From NCBI RefSeq assembly GCF_021462415.1, contig NZ_JAKEDS010000001.1, positions 2,018,273 to 2,082,272 of the forward strand: 64,000 nt of DNA. Direction: 5' to 3'. Below the pieces are notes generated by a model. The model was not told the DNA's origin. It searched no databases and saw only the letters and a list, made by a program, of their open reading frames with translations. Origin of the DNA: Rhodohalobacter sp. 614A (GTDB lineage: Bacteria > Bacteroidota > Rhodothermia > Balneolales > Balneolaceae). Made by a program: the position numbers and the translations under genes. The first letter of the stretch is position 1. The number at the start of each line of letters is the position of its first letter. This document shows, in pieces, positions 1-56,423 of the stretch.

Positions 1-548
1 TGGTACGCCAACCGGGTTTGTGTTACCACTCCCTGTGAGGTCGCCCGCAGATTTTCCGACTGAGCCGCTTTATAAACTTCCGAACTGCTGATTCCCACAA
101 AAGCCTGTCCGCTGAAAATAGTCTGGGAAACGGATAAACCTCCCTGCCAGTTATTGTCCGTACCAAAAGCAACGGGCATTAAATCATTTGGATCCGCTTC
201 GGGATCAAAAATTACGGCCGGAATAAAATTCACCGGTACCTCAAGGTTCCGGGTGTAGTTAGCAGAGGCGGAAACGCTTGGCATCACCTCGCTCCATGCG
301 GTTCGTACTTGTTGATCGGCATCCCGAACGGTAAGCAGTGCCCGTTTCATTTGCGTATTGTTTGCAAGTGCTATTTGAATGGCTTGGGTGAGGTCAATCA
401 CGGGGCCATTATTCAAGCTATCCGGCACAGCTGTCGTATTTTGTGCAACAGCTATTTGAGAAGCCATTGCCACAATTATAACCAAGGCAACCGATTTCAA
501 ATAAAGGGTGAAAGAGTTAAGATTTATTTTCAAGTGTTTGATATTCAT
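1..548 (-). CDS. TolC-family outer membrane efflux protein, N-terminal part (cut by window edge)
   Basis: I translated the minus strand from the ATG at 548. About 182 residues are in the window and the frame is open to position 1, so the C-terminal part lies outside. A signal peptide ends near Ala35-Gln36 (hydrophobic run followed by AVA-Q). After it come an IDLTQAIQIALANN helix start, VMPSVSASANYTRN and LSVSQTIFSGQA, the usual pattern of outer-membrane factor proteins, which form the trimeric exit duct of RND or ABC type I export systems. The ATG overlaps the TGA stop of the TetR gene (ATGA), so the two are translationally coupled. Periplasmic adaptor and pump genes would be expected beyond the left edge. 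The family call is secure; the substrate is unknown. Confidence 0.85.
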   Translation of the reverse strand, partial: MNIKHLKINLNSFTLYLKSVALVIIVAMASQIAVAQNTTAVPDSLNNGPVIDLTQAIQIALANNTQMKRALLTVRDADQQVRTAWSEVMPSVSASANYTRNLEVPVNFIPAVIFDPEADPNDLMPVAFGTDNNWQGGLSVSQTIFSGQAFVGISSSEVYKAAQSENLRATSQGVVTQTRLAY

Positions 549-1222
549 TTCTGTTCAGTTTTTCGATCCGTATCAATTTGATTTAACAGTGCGTCTATAA
601 AAAGTTTTAGCATGCTGTGAATGGTGAGATTGTGTTCATCCATTACTTTGTTTATATGGCTTTGAGTGTTACTGAGGTGAAACTGTAAAATGCCCCGCAT
701 AATGAAACCAATTTGGATAGCCAGGATTTTGGGTTCAATCGTAGAGGGTATACTTCCGTCCTGAATGCCGATCTGCAGGGCTCGTGTCAAAACTACGCGG
801 AGTTCACTTTCAACCTCTTCAATGTCTTCAACATCAGTGGGTTCAACCTGACTTGAATGTTGGGCAAGAGCTTTGCTCAGAACCTTTTTTTCTTCCATAA
901 ATGCTAAGAAACTTTCCGCCATTTTCTTCACAAGTACAGCTCCCGGTTCATCCTGCTGAATGATTTTCATGAACTCTTCACTCAGAGTCCGGATGCTTTC
1001 TCTGCGAATAGCCCTGAAAAGTGCGGATTTATCTTTAAAGTAGAAGTAAAGAGTGCCTTTACTAAGCTCTGCCCGTTCCGCAATTTCGTCCATCGTGGTT
1101 TTTTCAAACCCATGCTCTTGAATTGATTCAATGGCGGCGAGCAATATTTGCTCCCTGCGGTTTTCCTGTTTTCTCGATGCCTTATTACTGGTTTTCATTT
1201 TTTTTGAATCTCGATTTTTCAT
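545..1222 (-). CDS. TetR/AcrR family transcriptional repressor
   Basis: This is a 225-residue cytoplasmic regulator. After a basic N-terminal tail, residues about 22-70 form the TetR helix-turn-helix: QILLAAIESIQEHGF, TTMDEIAERAELSKGTLYFYF, then KDKSALF. The rest is the all-helical ligand-binding and dimer domain, which is variable and gives no clue to the ligand. It is the first gene of an operon with the TolC-type gene (4-nt overlap), so it probably represses its own efflux system and responds to an exported or toxic compound. A perfect 18-bp palindrome lies 80-97 nt upstream and is the obvious operator candidate. The ATG at 1222 is used; a second ATG at 1198 would still keep the whole DNA-binding domain. 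Confidence 0.93.
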   Translation of the reverse strand: MKNRDSKKMKTSNKASRKQENRREQILLAAIESIQEHGFEKTTMDEIAERAELSKGTLYFYFKDKSALFRAIRRESIRTLSEEFMKIIQQDEPGAVLVKKMAESFLAFMEEKKVLSKALAQHSSQVEPTDVEDIEEVESELRVVLTRALQIGIQDGSIPSTIEPKILAIQIGFIMRGILQFHLSNTQSHINKVMDEHNLTIHSMLKLFIDALLNQIDTDRKTEQK

Positions 1223-1301
1223 TCATTCTTCTGGTGTAATTTTACTAACTGTACTGTCAGTCAATGAATGAGTCATGTCAAAGATATCATTATTTCAATT
1301 A

Positions 1302-1319
1302 GTTTACTAATTAGTAAAC
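1302..1319. promoter_or_regulatory. Perfect 18-bp palindrome, probable TetR operator
   Basis: GTTTACTAATTAGTAAAC reads identically on both strands. It sits 80 nt upstream of the TetR start codon, and a further half-site (AGTAAACTT) follows at 1322-1330. The length and symmetry suit a TetR dimer, and GTTTACT also resembles promoter-region DNA in many repressor systems. Binding is an inference. Confidence 0.6.
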
Positions 1320-1405
1320 AAAGTAAACTTACGAATATTCTATGCTGATGTTGCAGAAAAGGTGATTTTTTTTCTGACAATCTAATAAAAAAGTGATGGT
1401 AGCGG

Positions 1406-1455
1406 TTTTTTAAAGACTTAAGGCAGATTGGCGGACAGGTATGTCTTTAAAAAAA
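1406..1455. terminator. Inverted repeat, possible bidirectional terminator
   Basis: Arms TTTTTTAAAGAC (1406-1417) and GTCTTTAAAAAAA (1443-1455) enclose a 25-nt loop containing GGCAGATTGGCGGACAGG. It lies just past the stop of the GbsR-type gene and could end its transcript. The stem is A/T-rich and so is weak as a classical terminator. The loop sequence looks like a dispersed intergenic repeat. Confidence 0.4.
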
Positions 1456-1499
1456 TTTTACAGTTTTTTAACTCTCAGTAGAAAAAGAAGAGGTGTATA

Positions 1500-1970
1500 T
1501 CAGAAATTGTGTTCTTTTTTGAATTTTTCAATTAATACTGGGAATTCTCTTGAGAGGAATGTGTGAAATTTAAACATCCGATCAAGCCGGTACGGGTCCG
1601 TTCCTTTTTTTTCCTTTACAAGTTCCAAAGCCTTTCCGGAGATATCCTTCAGGTCGGTAACCAATTGCATCTGTCGTTCCATAAAATCGGTTACCGACCC
1701 TTCTCGAATGCGAAAATAGATTTGCCGTTCTCCTGTAATTCTCACTTTCTCAATCAGGCCCGCTTCAAGTAACATTCGGGTAATATTACTAACGGAAGCC
1801 TTACTGATTCCAAGGTTATCCATCAGGTCAGGAAACGACTGATGAGGAGGGTCGCAAATCAAGAGCCAGCCAAGTATTTGCCCATAAATTCGGGGATGCC
1901 CAATCTGCTCCATTTTAAGACTGAATTCATCCACAAAATCTATTTTGCTCGCATAACATTCTTCGCTCAT
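1500..1970 (-). CDS. GbsR/MarR family transcriptional regulator
   Basis: This 156-residue protein has a winged helix-turn-helix. Residues 22-45 (GHPRIYGQILGWLLICDPP) match the opening helix of GbsR-type regulators; the recognition region is SFPDLMDNLGISKASVSNITRMLLEAGLIEKV, followed by a wing (ITGERQIYFRI) and a C-terminal dimerisation helix pair. Members control osmolyte import, efflux or stress genes and often repress by binding short inverted repeats. It stands alone on its strand, with the TetR-TolC unit downstream and the ATP-grasp cassette upstream. A regulatory link to the efflux genes is possible but not shown. The ATG at 1970 is the only good start. Confidence 0.85.
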   Translation of the reverse strand: MSEECYASKIDFVDEFSLKMEQIGHPRIYGQILGWLLICDPPHQSFPDLMDNLGISKASVSNITRMLLEAGLIEKVRITGERQIYFRIREGSVTDFMERQMQLVTDLKDISGKALELVKEKKGTDPYRLDRMFKFHTFLSREFPVLIEKFKKEHNF

Positions 1971-2076
1971 AAATATTGATTCCTGATTGAGTATGAAAAT
2001 TAATTGACGTTATTAAAATAGTGAACAAATTTAAATGTTTGAATTTTGGGAGGATCTTCGGGAAAGAATTTTCTGA

Positions 2077-2952
2077 TCAAACATCAAAATAACTGTAAAG
2101 TCCTTCAGCCCGGTACTTGCGCCGTTGCATCATCTCCCGGTTATCAACCAGGTTGGGTGAAGATCCTACGGTTTTGTTGGCATCAAGCAGAATGGCTTCA
2201 CCGTCAACCACAACATAATCGAATTTACCGTAATCAAAATGCAATTTTTTGCGCATCTCAATGATTTTCGGATGCGGTTCTATCGGGTGTTCCACAACTT
2301 CTGCCGTTCCACCGGTTACAATTTGAAATTTGCCCTTTAATCTTGAGCAAGTGATCCGGTCGCCAAGGAAACTCATATATCTCAGACAGTAATATTCGTT
2401 TTCACGTTCAGGAATGAATTTTTGAACGATTAAACCGGGATGATAAAAATAATGGCGCGGCACTTTGCTGATATGTTCGTAGATAGGGTAATCATACTGG
2501 GATTTTATTCGCGGAGAAAACAGGTGCAAATCGCTGTGGTCAATATCAAAAACGGAAAGAAGTTTATTTTGAATTTTTTTGAGGTAACCACCGCGCCATC
2601 TCTCCGGAACACCTGCTGCATTTCTATCCGTTTTTACGATGACCTGGCCATCCCAGGAATCATTGGGACGAAGAAGATTCTGGCTGAACGTAGATTTTTT
2701 TATGTTGCTGATTTTCCCGTTCACAGCCACAGGATATTGGCTGGCAAAGTCGAGATAAGACTCCGGAACTTCCGTCAAATCGATATGAACGATGATTAAA
2801 TCGGCAGGCACAAACCGGTTTATTCCAAACAGGTAGAAAACATCGTGTCCGTCTTCCCTCCAGAGTTGTACGAACTGGTTGATAAGATAGCGCTGCACTG
2901 TATTTATATTATCAGTTTGATACATCAAGATTGCAATGTGCCGCTTTTTCAT
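2077..2952 (-). CDS. ATP-grasp ligase (RimK-like), peptide or amino-acid modifying candidate
   Basis: This 291-residue cytoplasmic protein has an ATP-grasp fold. An N-terminal pre-grasp segment (MKKRHIAILMYQTDN) is followed by a nucleotide-binding lysine region (GQVIVKTDRNAAGVPERW), the central VQKFIPERENEYYCLRYMS strand, and the metal-binding end FDYVVVDGEAILLDANKTVG with the Asp and Asn that coordinate magnesium. The active site therefore looks intact. Such enzymes join a carboxylate to an amine or alcohol via an acyl-phosphate. The start is placed at ATG 2952, five nucleotides after the methyltransferase stop (2957); a longer reading to 3264 would only re-read methyltransferase DNA in another frame. 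It is the third gene of the peptide-methyltransferase-ATP-grasp cassette. The substrate is unknown. Confidence 0.8.
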   Translation of the reverse strand: MKKRHIAILMYQTDNINTVQRYLINQFVQLWREDGHDVFYLFGINRFVPADLIIVHIDLTEVPESYLDFASQYPVAVNGKISNIKKSTFSQNLLRPNDSWDGQVIVKTDRNAAGVPERWRGGYLKKIQNKLLSVFDIDHSDLHLFSPRIKSQYDYPIYEHISKVPRHYFYHPGLIVQKFIPERENEYYCLRYMSFLGDRITCSRLKGKFQIVTGGTAEVVEHPIEPHPKIIEMRKKLHFDYGKFDYVVVDGEAILLDANKTVGSSPNLVDNREMMQRRKYRAEGLYSYFDV

Positions 2953-2956
2953 CCGA

Positions 2957-3778
2957 TTACACTTTGCATGTGAGGGTAGGACAGCGTTCTCCCAATTCGT
3001 ATGCTGGTTCTGTACAGCGTAGTATTTCAAAACCGCTTTCATCCAAAATGGCCAGAATTTCCTGCAGTGTTGGAAAACTGTAAATATCATTCTGTCCGCG
3101 ATAGGCTTCAATCGTATTAATTTGCTCAACCGGCCATCCACATTTATCTGAAAGCGTTTTACTGCCGGGGCCATTGTGTTCCCATTCCTCCCAAACATCG
3201 CCTGTTCGAACACCTGCTCTAGAATCCGGTTGCATGGCCATAAGAAGCCGAAGTTTAAAAACATGAAAGTTGCCGATATTTCCGTTCAGGGCCGCCTCAT
3301 AAATTTCAGAAGCTTTTTCCTCTTTTTCCGGCCGGGCAAATATTCGGAAAACAAAAATGCCGTCCGTCGTGAGGACTCTTTTTAGCTGTTTCAGTACATC
3401 ATAATATTCATGAGGAAACCGCAACACGCCAAATGGACCATCACTCACAGCCAGATCGCGGGAGTGCTTTTCAAGGGGAAGATCCAGCCAGTTTCCACAC
3501 AAAACACCTTCGCCGGGATTTGGATAACCCGGCCAAACGCTGTCAATCATGTGCTGTGATTTGTCCACGGCTAACAAATCGGTTTCATCAGGCCATTTCA
3601 GGCGGGCCATTTCTGGTGTAACACCCATCACAAGAGCCCTGAGTCTTTTCTTTTTTGAGGCCACTTCATGAATGCCCCGTTCCATTAATTGATGATCTTC
3701 CAGGCATGGCCGCAATGGCGGCCCAACCCGATCCCATTGGGATGATTGGTTGGTCCAAACACCGGTTGATGAATTCAT
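2957..3778 (-). CDS. Class I SAM-dependent methyltransferase
   Basis: This 273-residue cytoplasmic enzyme carries SAM-binding motif I as LRALVMGVTPEMARLKW, the acidic residue after strand 2 in LLAVDKSQHMIDSVWPG, a motif around GNWLDLPLEKHSRDLAVSDG, and the helix LKQLKRVLTTDGIFVFRIF. The C-terminal 120 residues (from about 155) are substrate-specific and end in a Cys-containing tail (ERCPTLTCKV). It sits between the 66-residue membrane-anchored peptide gene and the ATP-grasp gene on the same strand, with 79 nt and 4 nt spacing. Joint action on a common substrate is plausible, but substrate and methylated atom cannot be read from sequence. Confidence 0.82.
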   Translation of the reverse strand: MNSSTGVWTNQSSQWDRVGPPLRPCLEDHQLMERGIHEVASKKKRLRALVMGVTPEMARLKWPDETDLLAVDKSQHMIDSVWPGYPNPGEGVLCGNWLDLPLEKHSRDLAVSDGPFGVLRFPHEYYDVLKQLKRVLTTDGIFVFRIFARPEKEEKASEIYEAALNGNIGNFHVFKLRLLMAMQPDSRAGVRTGDVWEEWEHNGPGSKTLSDKCGWPVEQINTIEAYRGQNDIYSFPTLQEILAILDESGFEILRCTEPAYELGERCPTLTCKV

Positions 3779-3833
3779 ACAAAATGTTTTGATATTAGGC
3801 TTAACAGAATGTATATGAAATGTTTTTTAAAGC

Positions 3834-3861
3834 AAATTTCTTAATATTTAAAATTTCTTAA
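3834..3861. repeat. Two direct copies of an 11-mer between peptide and methyltransferase genes
   Basis: AAATTTCTTAA occurs at 3834-3844 and again at 3851-3861, a 17-nt period. The second copy overlaps the stop codon of the small peptide gene. It is A/T-rich and may be chance or a protein-binding site. Confidence 0.3.
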
Positions 3862-4058
3862 AGTTTAACTTCCGGGATTTTTGAATCCTCTCCATTCTTG
3901 TTTTGTGGTTCAAAGAGCTCAATTTTGATTTCTGTACCATCGTCCTTTTTGTAAACAGGTACAATGGGTATGCCGCCGGTGATGCCGATGCCCAGTGTAG
4001 CGAGGGTAATCAGAAACACCAGCCGCAACACACGGAGTGTTTTACTGAATTTCTTCAT
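3858..4058 (-). CDS. Small membrane-anchored peptide, first gene of the ATP-grasp cassette
   Basis: This 66-residue protein has a basic start (MKKFSKTLRVLRLV), one hydrophobic segment at residues 13-33 ending in ITGG, then a 32-residue hydrophilic tail rich in Lys, Asp and Glu (VPVYKKDDGTEIKIELFEP). It reads as a signal anchor or secreted short peptide. I recognise no family. It precedes the methyltransferase and ATP-grasp genes on the same strand and could be their substrate, because ATP-grasp enzymes that crosslink ribosomal peptides use Lys, Asp and Glu side chains like those in the tail. The Gly-Gly follows a hydrophobic helix rather than an acidic leader, so it is not a typical double-glycine leader. 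A plain housekeeping membrane peptide is the alternative. Confidence 0.65.
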   Translation of the reverse strand: MKKFSKTLRVLRLVFLITLATLGIGITGGIPIVPVYKKDDGTEIKIELFEPQNKNGEDSKIPEVKL

Positions 4059-4081
4059 ATTTATACAGGAATTTTGTGAGA

Positions 4082-4100
4082 TTGCCGAAAGGCAAAAATA
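4082..4100 (-). promoter_or_regulatory. Possible Bacteroidota -7 element and leader hairpin of the peptide cassette
   Basis: On the minus strand TATTTTTG (4100-4093) fits the Bacteroidota -7 consensus TAnnTTTG, 35-42 nt upstream of the peptide ATG. It overlaps a small hairpin TTGCC-tttc-GGCAA (4095-4082). I see no convincing TTG -33 element at the expected distance, so this is weak. Confidence 0.3.
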
Positions 4101-4140
4101 GTTTTAGAAGGTCAGAGTCTGGGTTAGTGGAGTTGCGTGG

Positions 4141-4533
4141 CTAACCTATGTGGAAAGAAGAGGGATCTTCATCAGAATTCTGATGAAATATTTTTCTGAA
4201 CCTTTGAAAAGAAGAGATATGGTGGGAGTAAAACTTTTCCGATAAATCATGAAAAGCTATGGTGAAATGTATTTTATGATGGAGAATGATATTCCCTTCA
4301 TAATCTCTTGATCTTTTAACAGTTTTAAATGGATGTGAAACCGTAAGTGCCTTGTAGAAGGATACCGGCTGATCATCCTTTGAAGAAACAACCTCTTCAA
4401 TTTGGCTTGGCAGCGTTTGTCGGGCATTGGCCGGAACAGGGCTTAAAGAAAAAGCAAAACAACTTACCGCTACGAAAAGAGGCATCATCCATTTCAGAGA
4501 ATTTCTTTCCGGATATATGAATTGCATTATCAT
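4141..4533 (-). CDS. Secreted hypothetical protein
   Basis: This is a 130-residue protein of unknown family. The ATG at 4533 gives a signal peptide (basic start, hydrophobic MMPLFVAVSCFAFSLS, cleavage near ANA-RQ). The mature part (about 95 residues) is rich in His, Phe and Lys (HHKIHFTIAFHDLSEKFYSHH) and has no domain I know. An in-frame reading to 4641 exists but would cross the transcription terminator at 4567-4611 and the previous gene's end, so I reject it. An AGGAGG at 4566-4561 is too far from the ATG (27 nt) to serve it. It follows the sigma-factor unit on the same strand but is separated by the terminator. Confidence 0.6.
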   Translation of the reverse strand: MIMQFIYPERNSLKWMMPLFVAVSCFAFSLSPVPANARQTLPSQIEEVVSSKDDQPVSFYKALTVSHPFKTVKRSRDYEGNIILHHKIHFTIAFHDLSEKFYSHHISSFQRFRKIFHQNSDEDPSSFHIG

Positions 4534-4566
4534 AATGCAAGATAATCGAATCTTTGAATTCCTCCT

Positions 4567-4611
4567 AAAAAGCAGATCCACGACGCCGCAACAATTCCGT
4601 GGATCTTTTTT
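4567..4611. terminator. Bidirectional rho-independent terminator
   Basis: A 9-bp perfect stem AGATCCACG (4574-4582) / CGTGGATCT (4598-4606) is flanked by five T on the minus strand (4571-4567) and six T on the plus strand (4606-4611). It lies five nucleotides past the stop of the membrane protein at 4616 and ends the hydrolase-sigma-membrane protein transcript. Confidence 0.8.
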
Positions 4612-4615
4612 ACGA

Positions 4616-5278
4616 TCAGGATTCTTTTTCGAACTCATCAATCTCGTTTAAGAACTCAAGTGCATCATTCACCTGGCTGCCGCTTCCCTGAATCAGCCAG
4701 TTCAACCAATCTTTGTCAGCGGTTTTTGGGTTCAATTTCATATGGATCCATCCGGCAACAAAGATCAAACCAATACTGAGTATGCCATTCCAGAGCAGGA
4801 ATTCCGGTTCAGCTTCTGTCAGTAAATCGATTCCCCAAAAAACCTGAAATCCTACGATAATGAATGCCATATTAAACGGGAGTAACCATCCGGCCATTCG
4901 CAGGTTTTTAATGATTGAAATTTTGATATTCATTAAGCTCTTTTGAAGCTGGAGAACCGGCATGGAATAATCCACGCTAAGAATAAGCTGAAGTTTATGA
5001 ACAGCCCTGGCGCTGGCGATAAATGACCACAATGCCAAAATTGCCCCGGAAACTACGTAATGCCATTTATCCCAATGCGTTGCAGAAAAGTACATAAACC
5101 ATGATCCTGCCAGGGTGTAGAAAAAGATGGCAATTGATTCCTGCCAAATTAATCCGCTCATTTTTGATTTGGCCTTGTCGAGGCTCACTTTTCTTAACAG
5201 TTGGAGATTCAACCGCCGGTTTTGATCCAGTTTCTGTTCAAACCGGTGCCACGTTTGCTGTAAATTTGTAAGTTCCAT
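4616..5278 (-). CDS. Integral membrane protein paired with ECF sigma factor (possible anti-sigma)
   Basis: This 220-residue protein has an N-terminal cytoplasmic helix region (LQQTWHRFEQKLDQNRRLNLQLL) and about four membrane segments, at roughly residues 45-65, 73-92, 125-148 and 160-178, followed by a charged C-terminal tail. There is no zinc-binding anti-sigma motif. The gene begins two nucleotides after the sigma-factor stop, and such tightly linked membrane proteins often act as anti-sigma factors, with the cytoplasmic N-terminus holding sigma. That role is inferred from position. It resembles Bacteroidota proteins that carry no name beyond hypothetical. Confidence 0.7.
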   Translation of the reverse strand: MELTNLQQTWHRFEQKLDQNRRLNLQLLRKVSLDKAKSKMSGLIWQESIAIFFYTLAGSWFMYFSATHWDKWHYVVSGAILALWSFIASARAVHKLQLILSVDYSMPVLQLQKSLMNIKISIIKNLRMAGWLLPFNMAFIIVGFQVFWGIDLLTEAEPEFLLWNGILSIGLIFVAGWIHMKLNPKTADKDWLNWLIQGSGSQVNDALEFLNEIDEFEKES

Positions 5279-5280
5279 TG

Positions 5281-5712
5281 CTATATAGTTTTAAAGTGTT
5301 CTTTTAATCTATGTTTAATCCGGTGGATTTTTGTTCCCACGTTGCTCACCGAAATATCGAGTACCTCGGCAATATCTTCGTGGCTGTTTCCATCCAGGTA
5401 CAAAATCATGATCGCCCGGTTCAGTTCATCCAGGTTTTGAATGAACTGACGAAATTGGAGCACTTCTTTGTCCATCGGCTCATTTTCTTCTTCTTTGATT
5501 TCCATGATCTTTTCCGGCATCTGCCCGATGTATTTCTTTCGGGTTTTAGATTTCCTGAAAAAAGAGATGGATACGTTCAATGCCACACGATACATCCAGG
5601 TTGTTATTTTTGAATGATGATTAAACCGGTCGTATCCATCCAACAGGTGGTAGATAATTTCCTGGACCAGATCTTCCTGTTCATTCGGATCATCGCAGTA
5701 ACTGTTAACCAC
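5281..5712 (-). CDS. ECF-type RNA polymerase sigma factor (sigma-70 regions 2 and 4), 5' end uncertain
   Basis: The 143 residues from a GTG at 5712 contain region 2 (DPNEQEDLVQEIIYHLLDGYDRF, then TTWMYRVALNVSISFFRK) and region 4 (LDELNRAIMILYLDGNSHEDIAEVLDISVSNVGTKIHRIKHRLK). The frame is open upstream to 5751 and its upstream codons give QNKGIIYKV, the normal beginning of region 2 in this family, but no ATG is in that frame. An ATG at 5747 overlapping the upstream hydrolase stop (TGATG) reads MTESK in a neighbouring frame; one extra A in the AAAA run would join them. So the gene is either started at GTG, losing part of region 2, or carries a single-base frameshift or sequencing error. It probably directs transcription of an envelope-stress regulon. 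Confidence 0.85.
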   Translation of the reverse strand: MVNSYCDDPNEQEDLVQEIIYHLLDGYDRFNHHSKITTWMYRVALNVSISFFRKSKTRKKYIGQMPEKIMEIKEEENEPMDKEVLQFRQFIQNLDELNRAIMILYLDGNSHEDIAEVLDISVSNVGTKIHRIKHRLKEHFKTI

Positions 5713-46793: not shown

Positions 46794-47084
46794 TTATTTT
46801 CTTGCTTCCCAATAGCCCGGTTTTCGTTTTATATGCTTGACAGCAGTAATCGTGATTATATTTTCAGAAATGTCATAAATAATTTCATAGGGAAATCAAT
46901 CAAGTAAAATTCTTCGATCTTGTTCAGTTAATAAAGATCCAGATTGAGGATGCGCCAATGCCTGAGCGATAGCTTCTTCTATTTCATCAAGAAATTCAGC
47001 ACCAAGACCGATAGATTTTTCTTCGTAATATTGAATGGAACTCGTTAACTCTTTTGCTGCTTCAGGATGATATTGAAACTTCAT
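46794..47084 (-). pseudogene. ParE/RelE-family toxin with in-frame stop codon
   Basis: The minus-strand frame reads MKFQYHPEAAKELTSSIQYY, EFLDEIEEAIAQALAHPQSG, EQDRRILLD, then TGA (46898-46896), and continues in frame FPYEIIYDISENIITITAVKHIKRKPGYWEARK to TAA at 46794. Normal ParE toxins read LLDRFPY here, so CGA to TGA is the likely change. The stop removes the final beta strands, including the KRKPGYW active-site end. The toxin would therefore be inactive unless the stop is read through. It overlaps the antitoxin gene by 4 nt. Confidence 0.85.
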
Positions 47085-47314
47085 TTTTTAAGAAGTTCTC
47101 GAGCAGCTTTATGTACCTCTTGTCCAGAAATTGGAGTTACTTTACCCGATTTGATTTCAGCTTTTCTCAGTTTGATTTCATCAAGCCAGGCTTCCTCAAC
47201 ATCTTCATCAATTTGTTGATCAAGGCTGTTAATAAGCTTTTTTGCTAATTCAGCGCGATGTTTTTCGTCTAATTCGAGAGCTGAATGCTGGATTTTTTTA
47301 TAATCTGTAATCAT
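47081..47314 (-). CDS. Antitoxin of the addiction-module (unstable antitoxin) family
   Basis: This 77-residue protein (IQHSALELDEKHRAELAKKLINSLD, then DVEEAWLDEIKLRKAEIKSGKVTPISGQEVHKAARELL) has the TIGR02574-type putative addiction-module profile: an acidic helical N-terminus and a C-terminal part that wraps the ParE toxin. Its stop overlaps the toxin start (ATGA), the classic arrangement. With the toxin broken, the antitoxin is probably still expressed and can repress the operon or protect against a related toxin. Confidence 0.9.
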   Translation of the reverse strand: MITDYKKIQHSALELDEKHRAELAKKLINSLDQQIDEDVEEAWLDEIKLRKAEIKSGKVTPISGQEVHKAARELLKK

Positions 47315-49257: not shown

Positions 49258-49641
49258 CTATGCACGATTCGGCTTTACCTTCGAAAAGGCAATCACAGAT
49301 CCGCAAATCATGGCTGCTACACCAGCCGCCCCGATTCCGGGAATGATGATAAAAGCCAATTCGGGAACGGATACAATCAGGTGGGCAGGAGAGACATTCT
49401 TTGCAAAAAGTGCATCCAGCGAATGATAGAGGCTTTGTAGATTCCAGCCATTTGTAGTCATAAAACATACAATAGCCAGTACAAACGTGGCTACACAAAA
49501 TGCCATATAGCTCATTCCAATTGTATTTATAACTTTTTTCCTGTCAGAAAATCCGCCATAAAACAGTTTTGCAGCCACCGGTATCAAAAGTATGATGACG
49601 GCCGTAGTAATTCCGATTAAGGTTGTAACTCCGGTACTCAT
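49258..49641 (-). CDS. Small membrane protein downstream of glutaminase
   Basis: This 127-residue protein has four predicted helices (residues about 7-24, 40-62, 85-100 and 101-118), with Asp/Arg only at turns (GGFSDRKKVI). No family is recognised. It begins 30 nt after the glutaminase stop and is the third gene of the repeat protein-glutaminase operon. Possible roles are ammonia or amino acid transport, or sensing. Confidence 0.65.
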   Translation of the reverse strand: MSTGVTTLIGITTAVIILLIPVAAKLFYGGFSDRKKVINTIGMSYMAFCVATFVLAIVCFMTTNGWNLQSLYHSLDALFAKNVSPAHLIVSVPELAFIIIPGIGAAGVAAMICGSVIAFSKVKPNRA

Positions 49642-49671
49642 TTTCTCTTTTATTTTAGTTCGTTTTCGGTT

Positions 49672-51249
49672 TTACCGGTGTTTTGTGATTCCCGTTTTTT
49701 TGGTTTTGAGGGCATTTTCCAGCATCTCCTGAATCTCTTTATGTTTAAATTTTTTGGCATCATCCAGCGGAGTATTTCCCCAGCGGTCTTTGGGTGAGAG
49801 AAATACATTCTGGTCAATCAAATGCCGGACAACCTCTGTTTGTCCTTCACAAGCGGCCAAATGAAGAGGCGTTCGTCCGTCATAATCCGCCGTATTTGGG
49901 CTGACACCTTCTGCCTCTAACCGAAAGATTTCATCCAAATCACCATGGCTTGCGGCACGAATCAATTCCATCACTTTGGATGCCATGATTTCACTCTGCT
50001 TTCTCCGGGGATTGATTTTTGATGAATGTCCGACGAGCGAGTCGTATTGATGAAAACTGAATCGCTCCACAAGCCGCTCGCAAAATTCTACACCACGAAC
50101 CGTATTGCCAAGATGATCCAGCCTTGGCGACCAAATGCTGATGCCCATCAGGTTTGGAATCACCAGCATTAATGCGCCAGAAACGCCACTTTTTGCCGGC
50201 AGACCAATCTTGAAGGCAAACTCCCCTGAAAAATCGTACATCCCACAACTCAGCATCAGCGAAAGACAATTTTGTACGGTGGACGGTTTGAAGATCACAT
50301 TGCCCGTAAGTGGATTGGTACCTGCATTGGCCAAAGTTGCAGCTGCAACGGCAAGATCATACGTACAGGATTCTATCGAGCAGCACTGGAAATAGAATTC
50401 CAGGGTTTCGGTCAGGTTGGTGTGCTCAGGAAATGCGTGTTTCTCTCTCATGAAATAAGCCAGTGCAAAATTCCGGTCAGCGGTCTGGCGCTCAGACAGA
50501 TAAACAGCATTGTTAAAACTCACAGCTTTATCCCCGCAAAGTGCTTCCCATGTTTTATGAACCTTATCAAATCGATCCGCGATGTTGTTTTGGCGATCAA
50601 TCAGAGAGCAGCTCATCATGGCTCCGGCGTTAATCATGGGATTATGAGGAAGCCCTTTGCCGTTTAGAGTGAGTTCGTTAAATGAATGTCCGCTGGGTTC
50701 CCGCCCCACATGGCTGTGCACTTTCTTTTCCCCAAGTTCTTCCAGTGCAAGACAATAGTTGATCGGCTTGCAGGATGATTGCAGGCAAAAGTTGGTTCTG
50801 GAATCTCCCATCGAGAAGCGTTGTCCGTCCACCGTACAAATGGAAAGGGCAAAGTGATCCGGGTTTACACGGGCAAGCTGTGGAATATAATCAGCCACAT
50901 TTCCTCTGTGGTTTTTCTTTGTATCCTGAAATATTTCCTCAACCTGTTTACAGAATGCTTCAAAATCCGGGATAACCAGGTTTTCTGTGAGTGACTTCTT
51001 AATCAATGCATTCTGTTTCAGAATTTCATTGAATTCGGCTTGGGTAATGGTCGGACTTTTTCTCTCTTTCAGTTCTTCAATCCGGAAATTTCGAAGCAAT
51101 TCCTGGATACGGGGATCATCAGGCAGAATTCCGGTACGCGCCAGTCTATTCAAGAATTTATCCTGATCAACCGATTTTTTCTTTCCTGATTCGAGGATTC
51201 TGAACAGAGAATCTGCAGTATTATTATCGATTTGTGAGGTGGTAATCAT
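49672..51249 (-). CDS. glsA: Glutaminase with C-terminal ankyrin repeats
   Basis: This 525-residue enzyme has a serine beta-lactamase-like glutaminase core in residues about 75-415: FCLQSSCKPINYCLALEELG holds the catalytic Ser-x-x-Lys, GLPHNPMINAGAMMSCSLI and FALAYFMREKHAFP continue it, and CGMYDFSGEFAFKIGLPAKSGVSGALMLVIPN ends it. Two or three ankyrin repeats follow (VMELIRAASHGDLDEIFRLEAEG, DGRTPLHLAACEGQTEVVRHLI, WGNTPLDDAKKFKHKEIQEML). The N-terminal 75 residues (DSLFRILESGKKKSVDQDKFLNRL) resemble an EF-hand-like element. It hydrolyses glutamine to glutamate and ammonia; the ankyrin part is for protein contact. The preceding repeat-protein gene ends 15 nt before its start. Confidence 0.93.
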   Translation of the reverse strand: MITTSQIDNNTADSLFRILESGKKKSVDQDKFLNRLARTGILPDDPRIQELLRNFRIEELKERKSPTITQAEFNEILKQNALIKKSLTENLVIPDFEAFCKQVEEIFQDTKKNHRGNVADYIPQLARVNPDHFALSICTVDGQRFSMGDSRTNFCLQSSCKPINYCLALEELGEKKVHSHVGREPSGHSFNELTLNGKGLPHNPMINAGAMMSCSLIDRQNNIADRFDKVHKTWEALCGDKAVSFNNAVYLSERQTADRNFALAYFMREKHAFPEHTNLTETLEFYFQCCSIESCTYDLAVAAATLANAGTNPLTGNVIFKPSTVQNCLSLMLSCGMYDFSGEFAFKIGLPAKSGVSGALMLVIPNLMGISIWSPRLDHLGNTVRGVEFCERLVERFSFHQYDSLVGHSSKINPRRKQSEIMASKVMELIRAASHGDLDEIFRLEAEGVSPNTADYDGRTPLHLAACEGQTEVVRHLIDQNVFLSPKDRWGNTPLDDAKKFKHKEIQEMLENALKTKKTGITKHR

Positions 51250-51264
51250 GGAATGGTAGGTTTG

Positions 51265-51666
51265 TTAACGTCGAACGTTATCTGTGGTTTTTGATAGCAG
51301 GTTGATTCGGCGAATAAAATTCTTTCCGAGAATACCTTTTGGCCCGGCATATTGACCGGCGGTAACCGTATTTGAAGAATCAACTTCTGCCCGGCGCAGG
51401 AAATGTTTGCCAAGCGGTCCTTTTGTATGCGAAAGCTGATCGGCTGATCTTGTGGTTGTTTCAGGCTGAAGATCAACCCGTTGAATGAAATTCTTGCCGA
51501 GTGGCCCTTTAGGCCGTGTAGTTTGATCGACTGTTACTAATGATTCAGAGTAAGCATCAATCCAGCGAAGAGTATTTTTGCCGAGAGGTCCCCGGTGATG
51601 TTGCTGGGCGATACTCATACTTGTGAGAGTTACTAAAAGTGTAACGGTTATACATACATGTTTCAT
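51265..51666 (-). CDS. Secreted protein of four tandem 28-29-residue repeats
   Basis: This 133-residue protein has a signal peptide (VCITVTLLVTLTSMSIAQ) and four repeats starting RGPLGKNTLRW (25), KGPLGKNFIQR (53), KGPLGKHFLRR (82) and KGILGKNFIRR (110). The period is 28, 29 and 28 residues. Each unit is a Gly-Pro-Leu-Gly-Lys block, a hydrophobic pair and a basic end, followed by a Ser/Thr-rich spacer. There are no Cys. I recognise no family. Repeats bordered by Arg-Arg or Lys-Arg resemble multi-copy peptide precursors. It lies 15 nt upstream of glsA on the same strand. Processing and function are speculative. Confidence 0.75.
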   Translation of the reverse strand: MKHVCITVTLLVTLTSMSIAQQHHRGPLGKNTLRWIDAYSESLVTVDQTTRPKGPLGKNFIQRVDLQPETTTRSADQLSHTKGPLGKHFLRRAEVDSSNTVTAGQYAGPKGILGKNFIRRINLLSKTTDNVRR

Positions 51667-51849
51667 AATGATCTATTTTTGCTTTACAGAAATGATATTC
51701 TCTTTTGATATCACTCCTTGATTTTTTTGACGATGTAAAAATAGACAGGAGAAGTGTGGAAGCGTTATCAAAAAAGCGGAAAATGCATGTACATTTCCGC
51801 CAAACTCACGTTACAAATCCGACAGACTATAACAAATCCGACAAAAAAC

Positions 51850-53520
51850 TTATGCCTGAGTTTGCAGGAGGGCAGAAGGGCTTAAGCCAAACTCTTTTTT
51901 AAAACATTTGGAAAAGTAAGAAGGACTGGAGAAACCGGTTTGGTACGCAATTTCAGCAATGTTCTGGTCGCTCCCCAATAACAGTTCTTTAGCGCGATGC
52001 AGGCGAACGGAAGAGATCAGTTGAATTGGTGATTTGTTCGTTACGGCTTTTAGCTTCCGTTGCAGCTGGCGTTCACTGATGCCGATCTCTTTGCAAAGTG
52101 TTTCCACTCCGAAAGATTCATCATCTAAATGAGAATCGATGCTTTGAAGTACATTTTCGAGCAGCGAACCATTTTGTGGGAATTGTTTTGGATAAGGACT
52201 GGCCTGATGATTGCCGCCATCCATTTGGTCGATAACACTGAACAGCGAGAATGTTTCACCCGATTGTGTGTCGAAAAAAGTTTTGAACGGGTTGAATGAT
52301 AGTCCGGCGCCCGACAGAAGATTTTTGACCGTTTGGGTCAGTAATATTTGGTTTCGCTGAGCTTGCTGAAGAATTGAATCAAAAAACTTTTTGGTTTCGT
52401 CGCGGATAAAGTGAGCTTCATCCACAGCGGCTTCTTTAATATGAATGGCTGTAGAAAGCCCCGCATTTTTGTCTCGAAAAGCGTCCATCAAATCTATACT
52501 GCAATGAACGGCTTTGCTGGGGCCTTCAAAAGTGGCAATAAAGGTATGGTTATTCCACTGGACAATATTTCCGCGGTATTGTTCAACGTATTGTTGAATC
52601 AGTGCCTGATAATCAACACTCTTGTTTTCGGGAGAGGTGATTCGGGTTGCAACAATAGTGAAAAGTTGTTCCTGGTAACTTCGTGGCGGCTTAATATTCA
52701 GGATGAACGATTTCATCTCTTCCAGGATCTCATTTGTATTTCCCGCCCAAAACAAGTGATCCTTGCCGGGAAATTCTACAAATTTCGCTCCCTTGATACG
52801 CTCCGCAATAAACCGTCCCTCCTCAATTTTAACATCGATATCATTGGTGCGCTGCATGATTAACGTGGGTACTTTTATGGAGCCCAAAATATCAATGATA
52901 TCAATCTGAGTATTCATTTTCGTGAGCACCATTGCCGCACTGGGACTGGCTCCGGATCGGAAATAATTCGCCAGCCAATCCATGAAAGTCTTGTCATGTG
53001 CTTTGGACGGTGCCAGGGTTTCCAGATTCATTTCACCGCTTCCCCAGCTGTTTTCAATCATATCGTACACAACCTGGCGCTCTTTATCAGTTGGCGCCCA
53101 GGGATATTCCGCGGCATATCGCCGTTTGGCAAATATCCCAAAAGTGATCAATGAAATAACACGGTTTGGGTAAGTGGCAGCGAAAAGGGCAGAAACTGAA
53201 CCTCCTTCCGAATGGCCAAACAAAACGGCTTTTTCAGATCCGACGGCATCCATCACAGCGCGGATGTCATCCATTCTCTCTTCCAGTGTGGAAAGCTCTA
53301 CAACCCGGTCCGAAAGTCCGGTTCCGCGTTTATCAAACAGAATCACACGGGCTATCTTGCCCAGTTCCTCCAAAAAATGTACAAGTTCGGGGCACGTCCA
53401 CATCCAGTCGATATTGGAAACCCAACCCGGAATATAAACCAGGTCAATGGAACCTGAGCCAAAAACCTGGTAGGCAATATTAATACGTCCGCTTTTTGTG
53501 TATTGAGTAGTGGGTTTCAT
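51850..53520 (-). CDS. Three-domain fusion: alpha/beta hydrolase, cyclase-like domain, AraC HTH
   Basis: This 556-residue protein has an alpha/beta hydrolase at 1-275 (nucleophile elbow FGHSEGGSVSALFA with Ser104, Asp near 227 in QRTNDIDVK, His255 in GKDHLFWAG). A class III adenylate-cyclase-like domain spans about 283-412 (YQEQLFTIVATRITSPEN, then NHTFIATFEGPSKAVHCSIDLMDAFR and QILLTQTVKNLLSGAGLSF), but the metal-binding Asp of the cyclase start is missing. An AraC HTH ends it at 455-553 (GVETLCKEIGISERQLQRKLKAVTNKSPIQLISSVRL, IAEIAYQTGFSSPSYFSKCFKKEFGLSPSALL). A soluble ligand- or ester-sensing regulator is likely. It precedes the repeat-protein operon (183 nt). Confidence 0.85.
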   Translation of the reverse strand: MKPTTQYTKSGRINIAYQVFGSGSIDLVYIPGWVSNIDWMWTCPELVHFLEELGKIARVILFDKRGTGLSDRVVELSTLEERMDDIRAVMDAVGSEKAVLFGHSEGGSVSALFAATYPNRVISLITFGIFAKRRYAAEYPWAPTDKERQVVYDMIENSWGSGEMNLETLAPSKAHDKTFMDWLANYFRSGASPSAAMVLTKMNTQIDIIDILGSIKVPTLIMQRTNDIDVKIEEGRFIAERIKGAKFVEFPGKDHLFWAGNTNEILEEMKSFILNIKPPRSYQEQLFTIVATRITSPENKSVDYQALIQQYVEQYRGNIVQWNNHTFIATFEGPSKAVHCSIDLMDAFRDKNAGLSTAIHIKEAAVDEAHFIRDETKKFFDSILQQAQRNQILLTQTVKNLLSGAGLSFNPFKTFFDTQSGETFSLFSVIDQMDGGNHQASPYPKQFPQNGSLLENVLQSIDSHLDDESFGVETLCKEIGISERQLQRKLKAVTNKSPIQLISSVRLHRAKELLLGSDQNIAEIAYQTGFSSPSYFSKCFKKEFGLSPSALLQTQA

Positions 53521-54971: not shown

Positions 54972-56423
54972 TTACTCACCCAAGAGCGCCTTGTACGGAT
55001 CTTCCAACGCATTGCAAACATATCTCAGGAAACGCGCGCCCTCGGCACCGTCTATTAGCCTGTGATCGTAGGAAAGGCTAAGCGGGAGTGTCAGTACAGG
55101 TTCAAATGATCCATCTTTGTAAACCGGTTTTGCGGTCATTTCCGAAACGCCTAAAATGGCTACCTGCGGATGATAAATCACAGGTGTGAATTGTGTTCCG
55201 CCAATACCGCCAAGATTGGAAATGATAAAATTTCCACCTTCCATCTCTTCACCTGAAAGTTTGCCTTCACGGGCTTTTTCGGCCAGTTCTGAGATTTCAA
55301 CAGAGATATCAATGATCGATTTTCGATCCACATCTTTCACAATCGGAACCAGTAATCCTTTTTCCGTATCCACGGCAATACCGATGTGCGTGTATTTTTT
55401 GAGGATGACTTCCTCACTTTCCATATCGATGCTGGCGTTGAACTTCGGAAACTGGTGCAGAGCAGTCGCAATCATTTTGGTGAGGACAGCTGTGATTGTC
55501 AGCTTGCCGCCCTTTCCCTCGGCTTCTTCCTGGTGCTCTTCCACATATTTTTGAATATTGGAGACATCAGCTTCATCAAACTGTGTGACATGTGGAATAG
55601 CTTGCCATGATTTTTGGGTCTGTTTAGCCGTGGCTTTACGGATGGCGGACAAGGGTTTTCGCTCCACTTGTCCCCACTGACTAAAATCGGGCAACTCACG
55701 ATCTGACTTTTTCTTTTCGCTGCTTCCTCCGCCGGATCGCTTCACATCTTCTGTTGTGATGAGGCCGTTTGGTCCGGTTCCCTTTACATTTTTCAGGTCA
55801 ATTCCCTGTTCACGGGCAAACCGTTTTGCGCCCGGAGCGGCCAGAATTTCATCACTATCAGAATCTTTTTTGGCTGATTTTTCACCTGATTTTTCTGATT
55901 CCTCAGGCTCTTCATCATCATCTTCTTCTTTACTCTCTTTTTTATCCTCTGATTCGTCTTCACCCTCATCCTCAGAAGATTCTTTCTCCTCGGATTCTTC
56001 TGGTTCTCCCTCTGCTTCATCAGACGATGCTTTTTTCTCTTTATTCTCATCATCTTCCGAATCGTCTTCGTCTACATCTTCATCCTTTTCATCTTCGTCC
56101 TGATCTGCTTTGTCTTCATCTGTCTCATTTTCTTTAGATTCGTTCTCTTCTTCGTCACCGGATTCATCCTCCTCTTCATCACTTTCATCGTCTTCAAGAA
56201 GTAAAATTACATCCCCGGTTTTGATGGAATCTCCCTCGCTGACTTTTACCTCTTTCACGGTTCCGGCTTCAGGTGAGGGAACTTCCACCGTTGCTTTATC
56301 ACTTTCTACGGCAATGATGGAATCGTCCTTTTCGATGGTATCGCCTTCTTTTACAAGTACTTCGGCCACAGAGCCTTCGTCGGCATCTTCGGAGAGTTTT
56401 GGTAGTGTAATTTCTTTCGCCAT
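54972..56423 (-). CDS. aceF: Pyruvate dehydrogenase E2, dihydrolipoamide acetyltransferase
   Basis: This 483-residue protein has one lipoyl domain (2-77; Lys43 in ESDKATVEVPS), a very acidic low-complexity linker (about 78-192), an E3/E1-binding domain (about 193-230: LAAPGAKRFAREQGIDLKNVKGTGPNGLITTEDV) and the catalytic core (about 250-483) with YDHRLIDGAEGARFLRYV, the His and Asp of acetyl transfer. It carries acetyl to CoA in the pyruvate dehydrogenase complex. It begins 12 nt after aceE, with which it forms an operon. E3 (lipoamide dehydrogenase) is not in the window. Linkers in other bacteria are usually Ala/Pro-rich; this one is Glu/Asp-rich. Confidence 0.95.
   Translation of the reverse strand: MAKEITLPKLSEDADEGSVAEVLVKEGDTIEKDDSIIAVESDKATVEVPSPEAGTVKEVKVSEGDSIKTGDVILLLEDDESDEEEDESGDEEENESKENETDEDKADQDEDEKDEDVDEDDSEDDENKEKKASSDEAEGEPEESEEKESSEDEGEDESEDKKESKEEDDDEEPEESEKSGEKSAKKDSDSDEILAAPGAKRFAREQGIDLKNVKGTGPNGLITTEDVKRSGGGSSEKKKSDRELPDFSQWGQVERKPLSAIRKATAKQTQKSWQAIPHVTQFDEADVSNIQKYVEEHQEEAEGKGGKLTITAVLTKMIATALHQFPKFNASIDMESEEVILKKYTHIGIAVDTEKGLLVPIVKDVDRKSIIDISVEISELAEKAREGKLSGEEMEGGNFIISNLGGIGGTQFTPVIYHPQVAILGVSEMTAKPVYKDGSFEPVLTLPLSLSYDHRLIDGAEGARFLRYVCNALEDPYKALLGE

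Follow-up and report, generated by a model that had tools for sequence, protein, structure and literature searches.

A regulated, probably exported repeat protein beside an animal-type glutaminase in a reduced glutamine/ammonia operon of Rhodohalobacter

The window analysed here, a 64-kb stretch of DNA from Rhodohalobacter sp. 614A, carries an operon that, as judged from its sequence, is a Bacteroidota glutamine/ammonia cluster in reduced form. The full cluster consists of an AraC-type regulator, a repeat protein (REP), glutamine synthetase, a glutaminase (GlsA), and an ammonium transporter (Amt). In our preferred reading, to which we assign a probability of about 60%, the operon was acquired and has since eroded, REP and GlsA are switched together, and REP acts as an exported multivalent binder. 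REP appears to represent a family, not previously described, whose members consist of repeated ten-residue motifs, and to be the regulated exported output of several regulons, coupled in the window to glutamine hydrolysis.

The three minus-strand open reading frames (Table 1) lie where the first-pass annotation had placed them, with 15 nt between REP and glsA and 30 nt between glsA and the Amt remnant. Their assignment to one operon is supported by position. A separating promoter would have spoken against that assignment; a sigma-70-type scan, which fits this kind of bacterium poorly, returned no promoter-like coding-strand site in either gap. The proposed three-gene boundary, however, has to be moved: The operon starts upstream of these frames, behind the AraC-type regulator gene and a conserved operator/promoter. 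Elsewhere in the window, also on the minus strand, are a toxin–antitoxin pair (46896–47314; an Unstab_antitox antitoxin at 2.8e-13, then a short ParE-like protein of 62 aa that scores 2.0e-4, just below cut-off, and looks truncated) and a dihydrolipoamide acyltransferase (E2; 54972–56423) of unusual composition, with an acidic linker of ~100 residues between its lipoyl and E3-binding domains.

Table 1. Coordinates of the operon, its REP motif units, and its upstream control elements in the window
Feature	Position	Strand	Description
Amt remnant (small membrane ORF)	49258–49641	minus	127 aa; ~120 N-terminal Amt residues, diverged
glsA	49672–51249	minus	525 aa; EF-hand-like N terminus, glutaminase, ankyrin C terminus
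REP gene	51265–51666	minus	133 aa; first operon gene; predicted exported cationic repeat protein
REP motif unit 4, GILGKN	51319–51336	minus	Motif reading
REP motif unit 3, GPLGKH	51403–51420	minus	Motif reading
REP motif unit 2, GPLGKN	51490–51507	minus	Motif reading
REP motif unit 1, GPLGKN	51574–51591	minus	Motif reading
REP signal peptide	51607–51666	minus	20 residues, followed by Q; cleavage site placed by inspection
Probable −7 promoter box	51736–51743	minus	TATTTTTA; 56 nt after CGG of last recognised operator site
Three direct-repeat operator sites	51828–51843, 51809–51824, 51787–51802	minus	Consensus TGTCGGAAWTGT; steps 19 and 22
AraC-family regulator gene	51850–53520	minus	556 aa; N-terminal alpha/beta-hydrolase domain

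The regulator matches Pfam HTH_18 (2.4e-26) and Abhydrolase_1 (5.4e-15), is 71–73% identical to the regulators of five other clusters, and over residues 3–409 resembles the NCBIfam LipJ lipase/adenylate cyclase model (1.3e-70, below cut-off). Direct repeats of TGTCGGAAWTGT are common to the upstream regions of the clusters, and the window's steps match those of the Flagellimonas pelagia locus (L013). When a matrix built from 21 sites in seven other loci, none of them from the window, was run on both window strands, ranks 1, 2, and 4 in the 64 kb fell at 51787–51843, just upstream of REP. The two-site tandem pattern has its sole match in the genome here and its sole match in genome G515 at the REP promoter; a backward control of the pattern matched nothing. 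A TAnnTTT[GA] box stands exactly 35 nt past the last operator in L013, L014, L015, and L066, and 56 nt past the last recognised (third) site in the window, L016, and L018. The box resembles the Bacteroidota promoter −7 consensus, TAnnTTTG, and in the window it is probably an element of this kind.

GlsA has the layout of the animal mitochondrial glutaminases GLS and GLS2: Pfam EF-hand_14 (residues 12–94, 1.2e-12), Glutaminase (116–402, 1.5e-112), and Ank_2 (429–510, 8.4e-12), the EF-hand-like, glutaminase, ankyrin order of GLS-type enzymes. It aligns with the human kidney-type enzyme from residue 13 to residue 511 (E = 2.2e-145), and its QSSCK aligns with human QSCVK, so that the catalytic Ser-x-x-Lys is present. 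Unlike its animal counterparts, the window enzyme is bacterial and shares its operon with REP and the Amt remnant. No signal peptide was seen on inspection, and GlsA is 78–82% identical to the GlsA of seven other clusters. For GAC and GLS2, PMC10912226 reports filament-coupled activity.

The third frame, previously described as a four-helix membrane protein, does encode a small membrane protein; its identity is that of the N-terminal piece of an ammonium transporter. Its ~120 N-terminal residues align with the Amts of the same cluster, reaching 38–46% identity to five full-length proteins, whereas intact Amts are 76–94% alike; the remnant has thus changed much more rapidly than have GlsA and the regulator. 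It matches TIGR00836 at 8.2e-5, below the model cut-off, and an Abhydrolase_9_N match (E = 0.11) was set aside in favour of Amt. In contrast to Amt/Mep/Rh transporters of ~400 residues with a pore, its 127 residues allow no channel as known, and no further Amt-like stretch lies beside it in the window. The frame is nevertheless stop-free over all 127 codons, an outcome that simulated drift at that divergence produces in 5–6% of runs; the remnant could be a stub in decay, or it could have taken on a new role as a small membrane protein.

A GlsA scan of named genomes yielded six loci (L013–L018; 78–82% identity) from Flagellimonas, Flavilitoribacter, Reichenbachiella, Gillisia, Aequorivita, and Christiangramia. 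L013 and L016 hold regulator, REP, glutamine synthetase, GlsA, and Amt; L017 and L018 follow the same order, the former with no REP and the latter with a shortened one. L015 reads synthetase, GlsA, Amt, REP; in L014, REP lies further upstream and no Amt follows GlsA. The locus of G515 (L066) has regulator, REP, and GlsA, no synthetase, and an Amt reduced to a 15-codon stub, so it and the window both lack the synthetase, have a broken Amt, and keep regulator, REP, and GlsA. The co-occurrence that the first-pass annotation proposed to check is therefore borne out, with an intact REP gene in six of the eight clusters that contain a close GlsA (the window, L013–L018, and L066). In F. pelagia, another REP gene, 60% identical to the first, lies downstream of amt (L013, 9660–9998), and the window's own genome encodes a related synthetase (60% identical) elsewhere. 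As a separate observation, a tmRNA-like sequence was noticed by eye downstream of the Amt stub in L066 (5079–5974); mobile DNA commonly inserts at tmRNA genes.

Synthetase, GlsA, and Amt are also found together where the synthetase is of another kind: In L138 (G412; 154–5556), a GlsA of 57% identity adjoins a type III glutamine synthetase and Amt. The enzyme and transporter families are the same as in L013–L018, where the synthetase is GSII-like; the window differs in having no synthetase, and L138 in having no REP and another synthetase type. REP is likewise absent with the more distant GlsA of G032, as of G412, and in four of the five genomes of a further GlsA search. Together with L017 and L018, these cases indicate that the enzyme does not need REP. 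Conversely, of the 33 genomes with REP in a 328-genome family set, 32 gave no match for this GlsA (one of the 32, G697, has a doubtful REP).

The window cluster was probably acquired horizontally. GlsA matched at 1e-10 in 4 of 58 neighbourhood genomes and, within the genus, in 1 of 28, the window's genome only. In the relative G015, the flanking methyltransferase (85%) and PepSY gene (71%) lie ~5 kb apart; the space between them holds other genes and not this cluster. Composition gives no foreign mark, since the cluster, at 44.5% GC, is close to the window (42.1%).

The first product had been annotated as a secreted protein of four GPLGKNF units. Signal peptide and four units are there, spaced 28, 29, and 28 residues apart; the exact GPLGKN occurs in two, and GPLGKH and GILGKN are one-residue departures. 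The family pattern is a signal peptide followed by three to four copies of L-T/K-GPxxKNxKPW at 28–32-residue spacing, and the window REP has the signal peptide and the at least three units at that spacing by which we recognise a member; most relatives have three units. The KPW that commonly, not universally, follows KN is mostly lost: The window units continue TLRW, FIQR, FLRR, and FIRR, and only the first keeps W. At the DNA level the repeats have diverged (best pair 71% over 55 nt), and Tandem Repeats Finder gave no row for them. They are not a chance arrangement, because they are conserved as protein and have relatives in other genera.

Across 99 units of 42 REP proteins, conservation stood at K 99, N 98, G 96, P 91, and W 75, and 77 of 81 spacings were 28–32 residues, the other four being one overlap and three skipped units. 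Net charge ranges from +5 to +23 (K + R minus D + E, signal peptide counted in), and spacers vary more than units. At variable positions, units within a protein are more alike (0.62) than same-index units across proteins (0.50; reached by 0 of 2000 permutations), a result inflated by protein relatedness; within the kinase group described below, the values are 0.68 and 0.64. That comparison used 123 units from 41 of the 42 proteins, including one unit in the wrong register (the first of L087) and excluding the second REP of L013, with only two recognised units. The 42-protein set omits the L094 REP, which met the profile and not the regular expression, and has no contribution from L017 and L018; two weak profile matches lacking the repeat (L033 in G401 and L097 in G697) and two other proteins that met the loose regular expression (L088 13587 and L093 13792) were dropped.

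The REP members tested had no Pfam, NCBIfam, or PDB match of note; a PDB profile search offered only transferrin-binding protein (E = 0.27), which we discounted. An AlphaFold2 model built from six sequences has a mean pLDDT of 54, its sole confident helix being residues 2–22, the signal peptide. One REP searched against plasmids found no match. Against the MNIO-class RiPP precursor (chryseobasin) model, one REP of six scored 15.9 bits, below the cut-off of 50, and inspection of REP neighbours revealed no MNIO-type modifying enzyme. Literature searches with REP motif strings returned nothing but unrelated collagen work, and no publication combining all five cluster terms was found. As a single query against 58 relatives, the window REP matched only itself, being too diverged, so that a profile from the other clusters was needed; the profile identified REP in 8 of 392 phylum genomes (one doubtful) and in 33 of 328 genomes of one family (one doubtful, G697).

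In 27 of these 33 genomes, REP comes after the genes of a HisKA_3 histidine kinase and a response regulator of LuxR type (L094 by profile match). A kinase search of the same 328 genomes found 27, every one of them with REP (hypergeometric ~1e-33, ignoring relatedness). The gap before REP holds an 18-bp palindrome, ATCCGTATWWATACGGAT, that with at most one mismatch occurs once per genome in all 23 kinase genomes searched, against 0.011 expected per genome, and is absent from one control, G515, which has the AraC version. These 23 comprise 20 of the 27 kinase genomes (all but G426, G560, G565, G604, G612, G700, and G730) plus G206, G372, and G415 from the phylum search. All 23 sites lie 75–96 nt before the REP match. 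Degenerate sites occur at some loci of the other seven kinase genomes; among the individual loci inspected, the palindrome carries one mismatch in L075 and L076 and three in L085 and L096, and L077 and L087 have no site within three mismatches. Of the 25 loci with a recognised palindrome, 24 have a promoter-like box 45–46 nt past it; TAnnTTTG proper is found in 16 of the 25, against 1.1 expected from shuffles. Position and conservation suggest that the LuxR-type regulator binds the palindrome, and the kinase/REP linkage with a single palindrome per genome points to REP as a dedicated regulated output.

The kinase system may have a link to nitrogen: In 3 of 27 genomes (L067, L068, and L087), a gene for a GSII-like glutamine synthetase lies no more than 8 kb from the kinase–LuxR–REP triad, and in L087 it adjoins REP. 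Most REP genes, beside the kinase pair, have no ammonia gene within 8 kb. A PDB search with the kinase sensor stretch gave no match; from its motif we presume a resemblance to Cache-type domains. A third REP context, the gene order Amt–BBP2 porin–REP, is present in two genomes that belong to a single genus and provides a second ammonium link, and in a fourth (L088, L092, L093, and L095) REP sits among unrelated genes.

In the mechanism we favour, the AraC-type regulator would sense a small molecule via its hydrolase-like domain and turn on REP and GlsA together. GlsA would convert glutamine to glutamate and ammonia in the cytosol, and REP would be exported, without contact to GlsA. Its three to four evenly spaced GPxxKN units on a basic, probably flexible chain would let it bind multivalently, either in the periplasm or on the cell surface. 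The protein would be made only upon activation of a private regulator, which is of AraC type here and a histidine kinase/LuxR pair elsewhere. Multivalent binding is the most likely role in view of the equal spacing, the charge, and the co-variation of the units.

Other roles for REP account for part of this evidence. The annotation's own proposal, an acid-resistance or signalling module in which the ankyrin repeats bind a partner, taken here to be REP, draws on the adjacency of the genes on one strand, yet we hold it to be highly improbable: The signal peptide puts REP in a different compartment from GlsA, most REP relatives occur in genomes where GlsA was not found, and GlsA also occurs without REP. 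Its ammonia/glutamine theme survives; acid resistance is unsupported, the evidence speaking neither way, and the interpretation as a whole is partly supported. Export and two-component control instead recall CpxP and Spy, small exported periplasmic stress proteins that are likewise targets of two-component systems, CpxP being the feedback protein of the sensor CpxA. REP could by analogy be a periplasmic accessory protein that dampens the kinase controlling it, a minor possibility that suits the palindrome, which stands beside the kinase pair and before no gene other than REP, giving one sensor and one target. It leaves unexplained the REP genes placed under an AraC-type regulator and those that adjoin Amt and a porin and have no regulator. 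The REP members tested match no CpxP or Spy profile, and REP is predicted, with low confidence, to be flexible rather than helical. Yeast alpha-factor, a multi-copy peptide precursor, likewise packs several short, nearly identical units into a single exported chain. Cutting between REP units would release near-identical GPxxKNxKPW peptides as signals for neighbouring cells or for the kinase of the producing cell itself, and the greater likeness of units within proteins, the more variable spacers, and the presence of REP beside the kinase in every kinase genome of the 328-genome set fit such a precursor. We nonetheless regard it as unlikely, because the constant spacing, a departure from alpha-factor, suits a standing repeat equally, the window regulator is no membrane receptor, inspection of the genes next to REP showed no processing enzyme, and the likeness shrinks to a slight difference within the kinase group.

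The state of the operon also admits another account, in which it is decaying cargo: After transfer the synthetase was lost and Amt was broken, and REP and GlsA would be next. The missing synthetase, the truncated and diverged Amt, the same two losses in G515, and the KPW part largely gone from the window units agree with progressive decay. Regulator, operators, REP frame, and a well-conserved GlsA are intact, however, and drift would seldom have left the Amt remnant open; we therefore doubt that the whole operon is on its way out, and keep to the reading of an eroded operon that still switches REP and GlsA together.

The family thus described is conserved and exported, and its private regulators fall into two unrelated kinds; one kind is a two-component system with a single operator-like site in each genome. 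The dedicated sensor systems of the relatives suggest an unrecognised job for REP outside the inner membrane. A bolder proposal, which we think improbable, is that GPxxKN proteins form a new class of multi-copy extracellular peptide signals or surface ligands, that one sensor kinase family exists only to control one of them through a single operator per genome, and that the AraC version ties such a peptide to glutamine/ammonia status. Private regulators and one operator-like site per genome make REP function testable by a single deletion and a single reporter. The combination of a glutamine-making and an animal-type glutamine-splitting enzyme with an ammonium channel in bacteria would offer a simple setting for studying how such a cycle is controlled.
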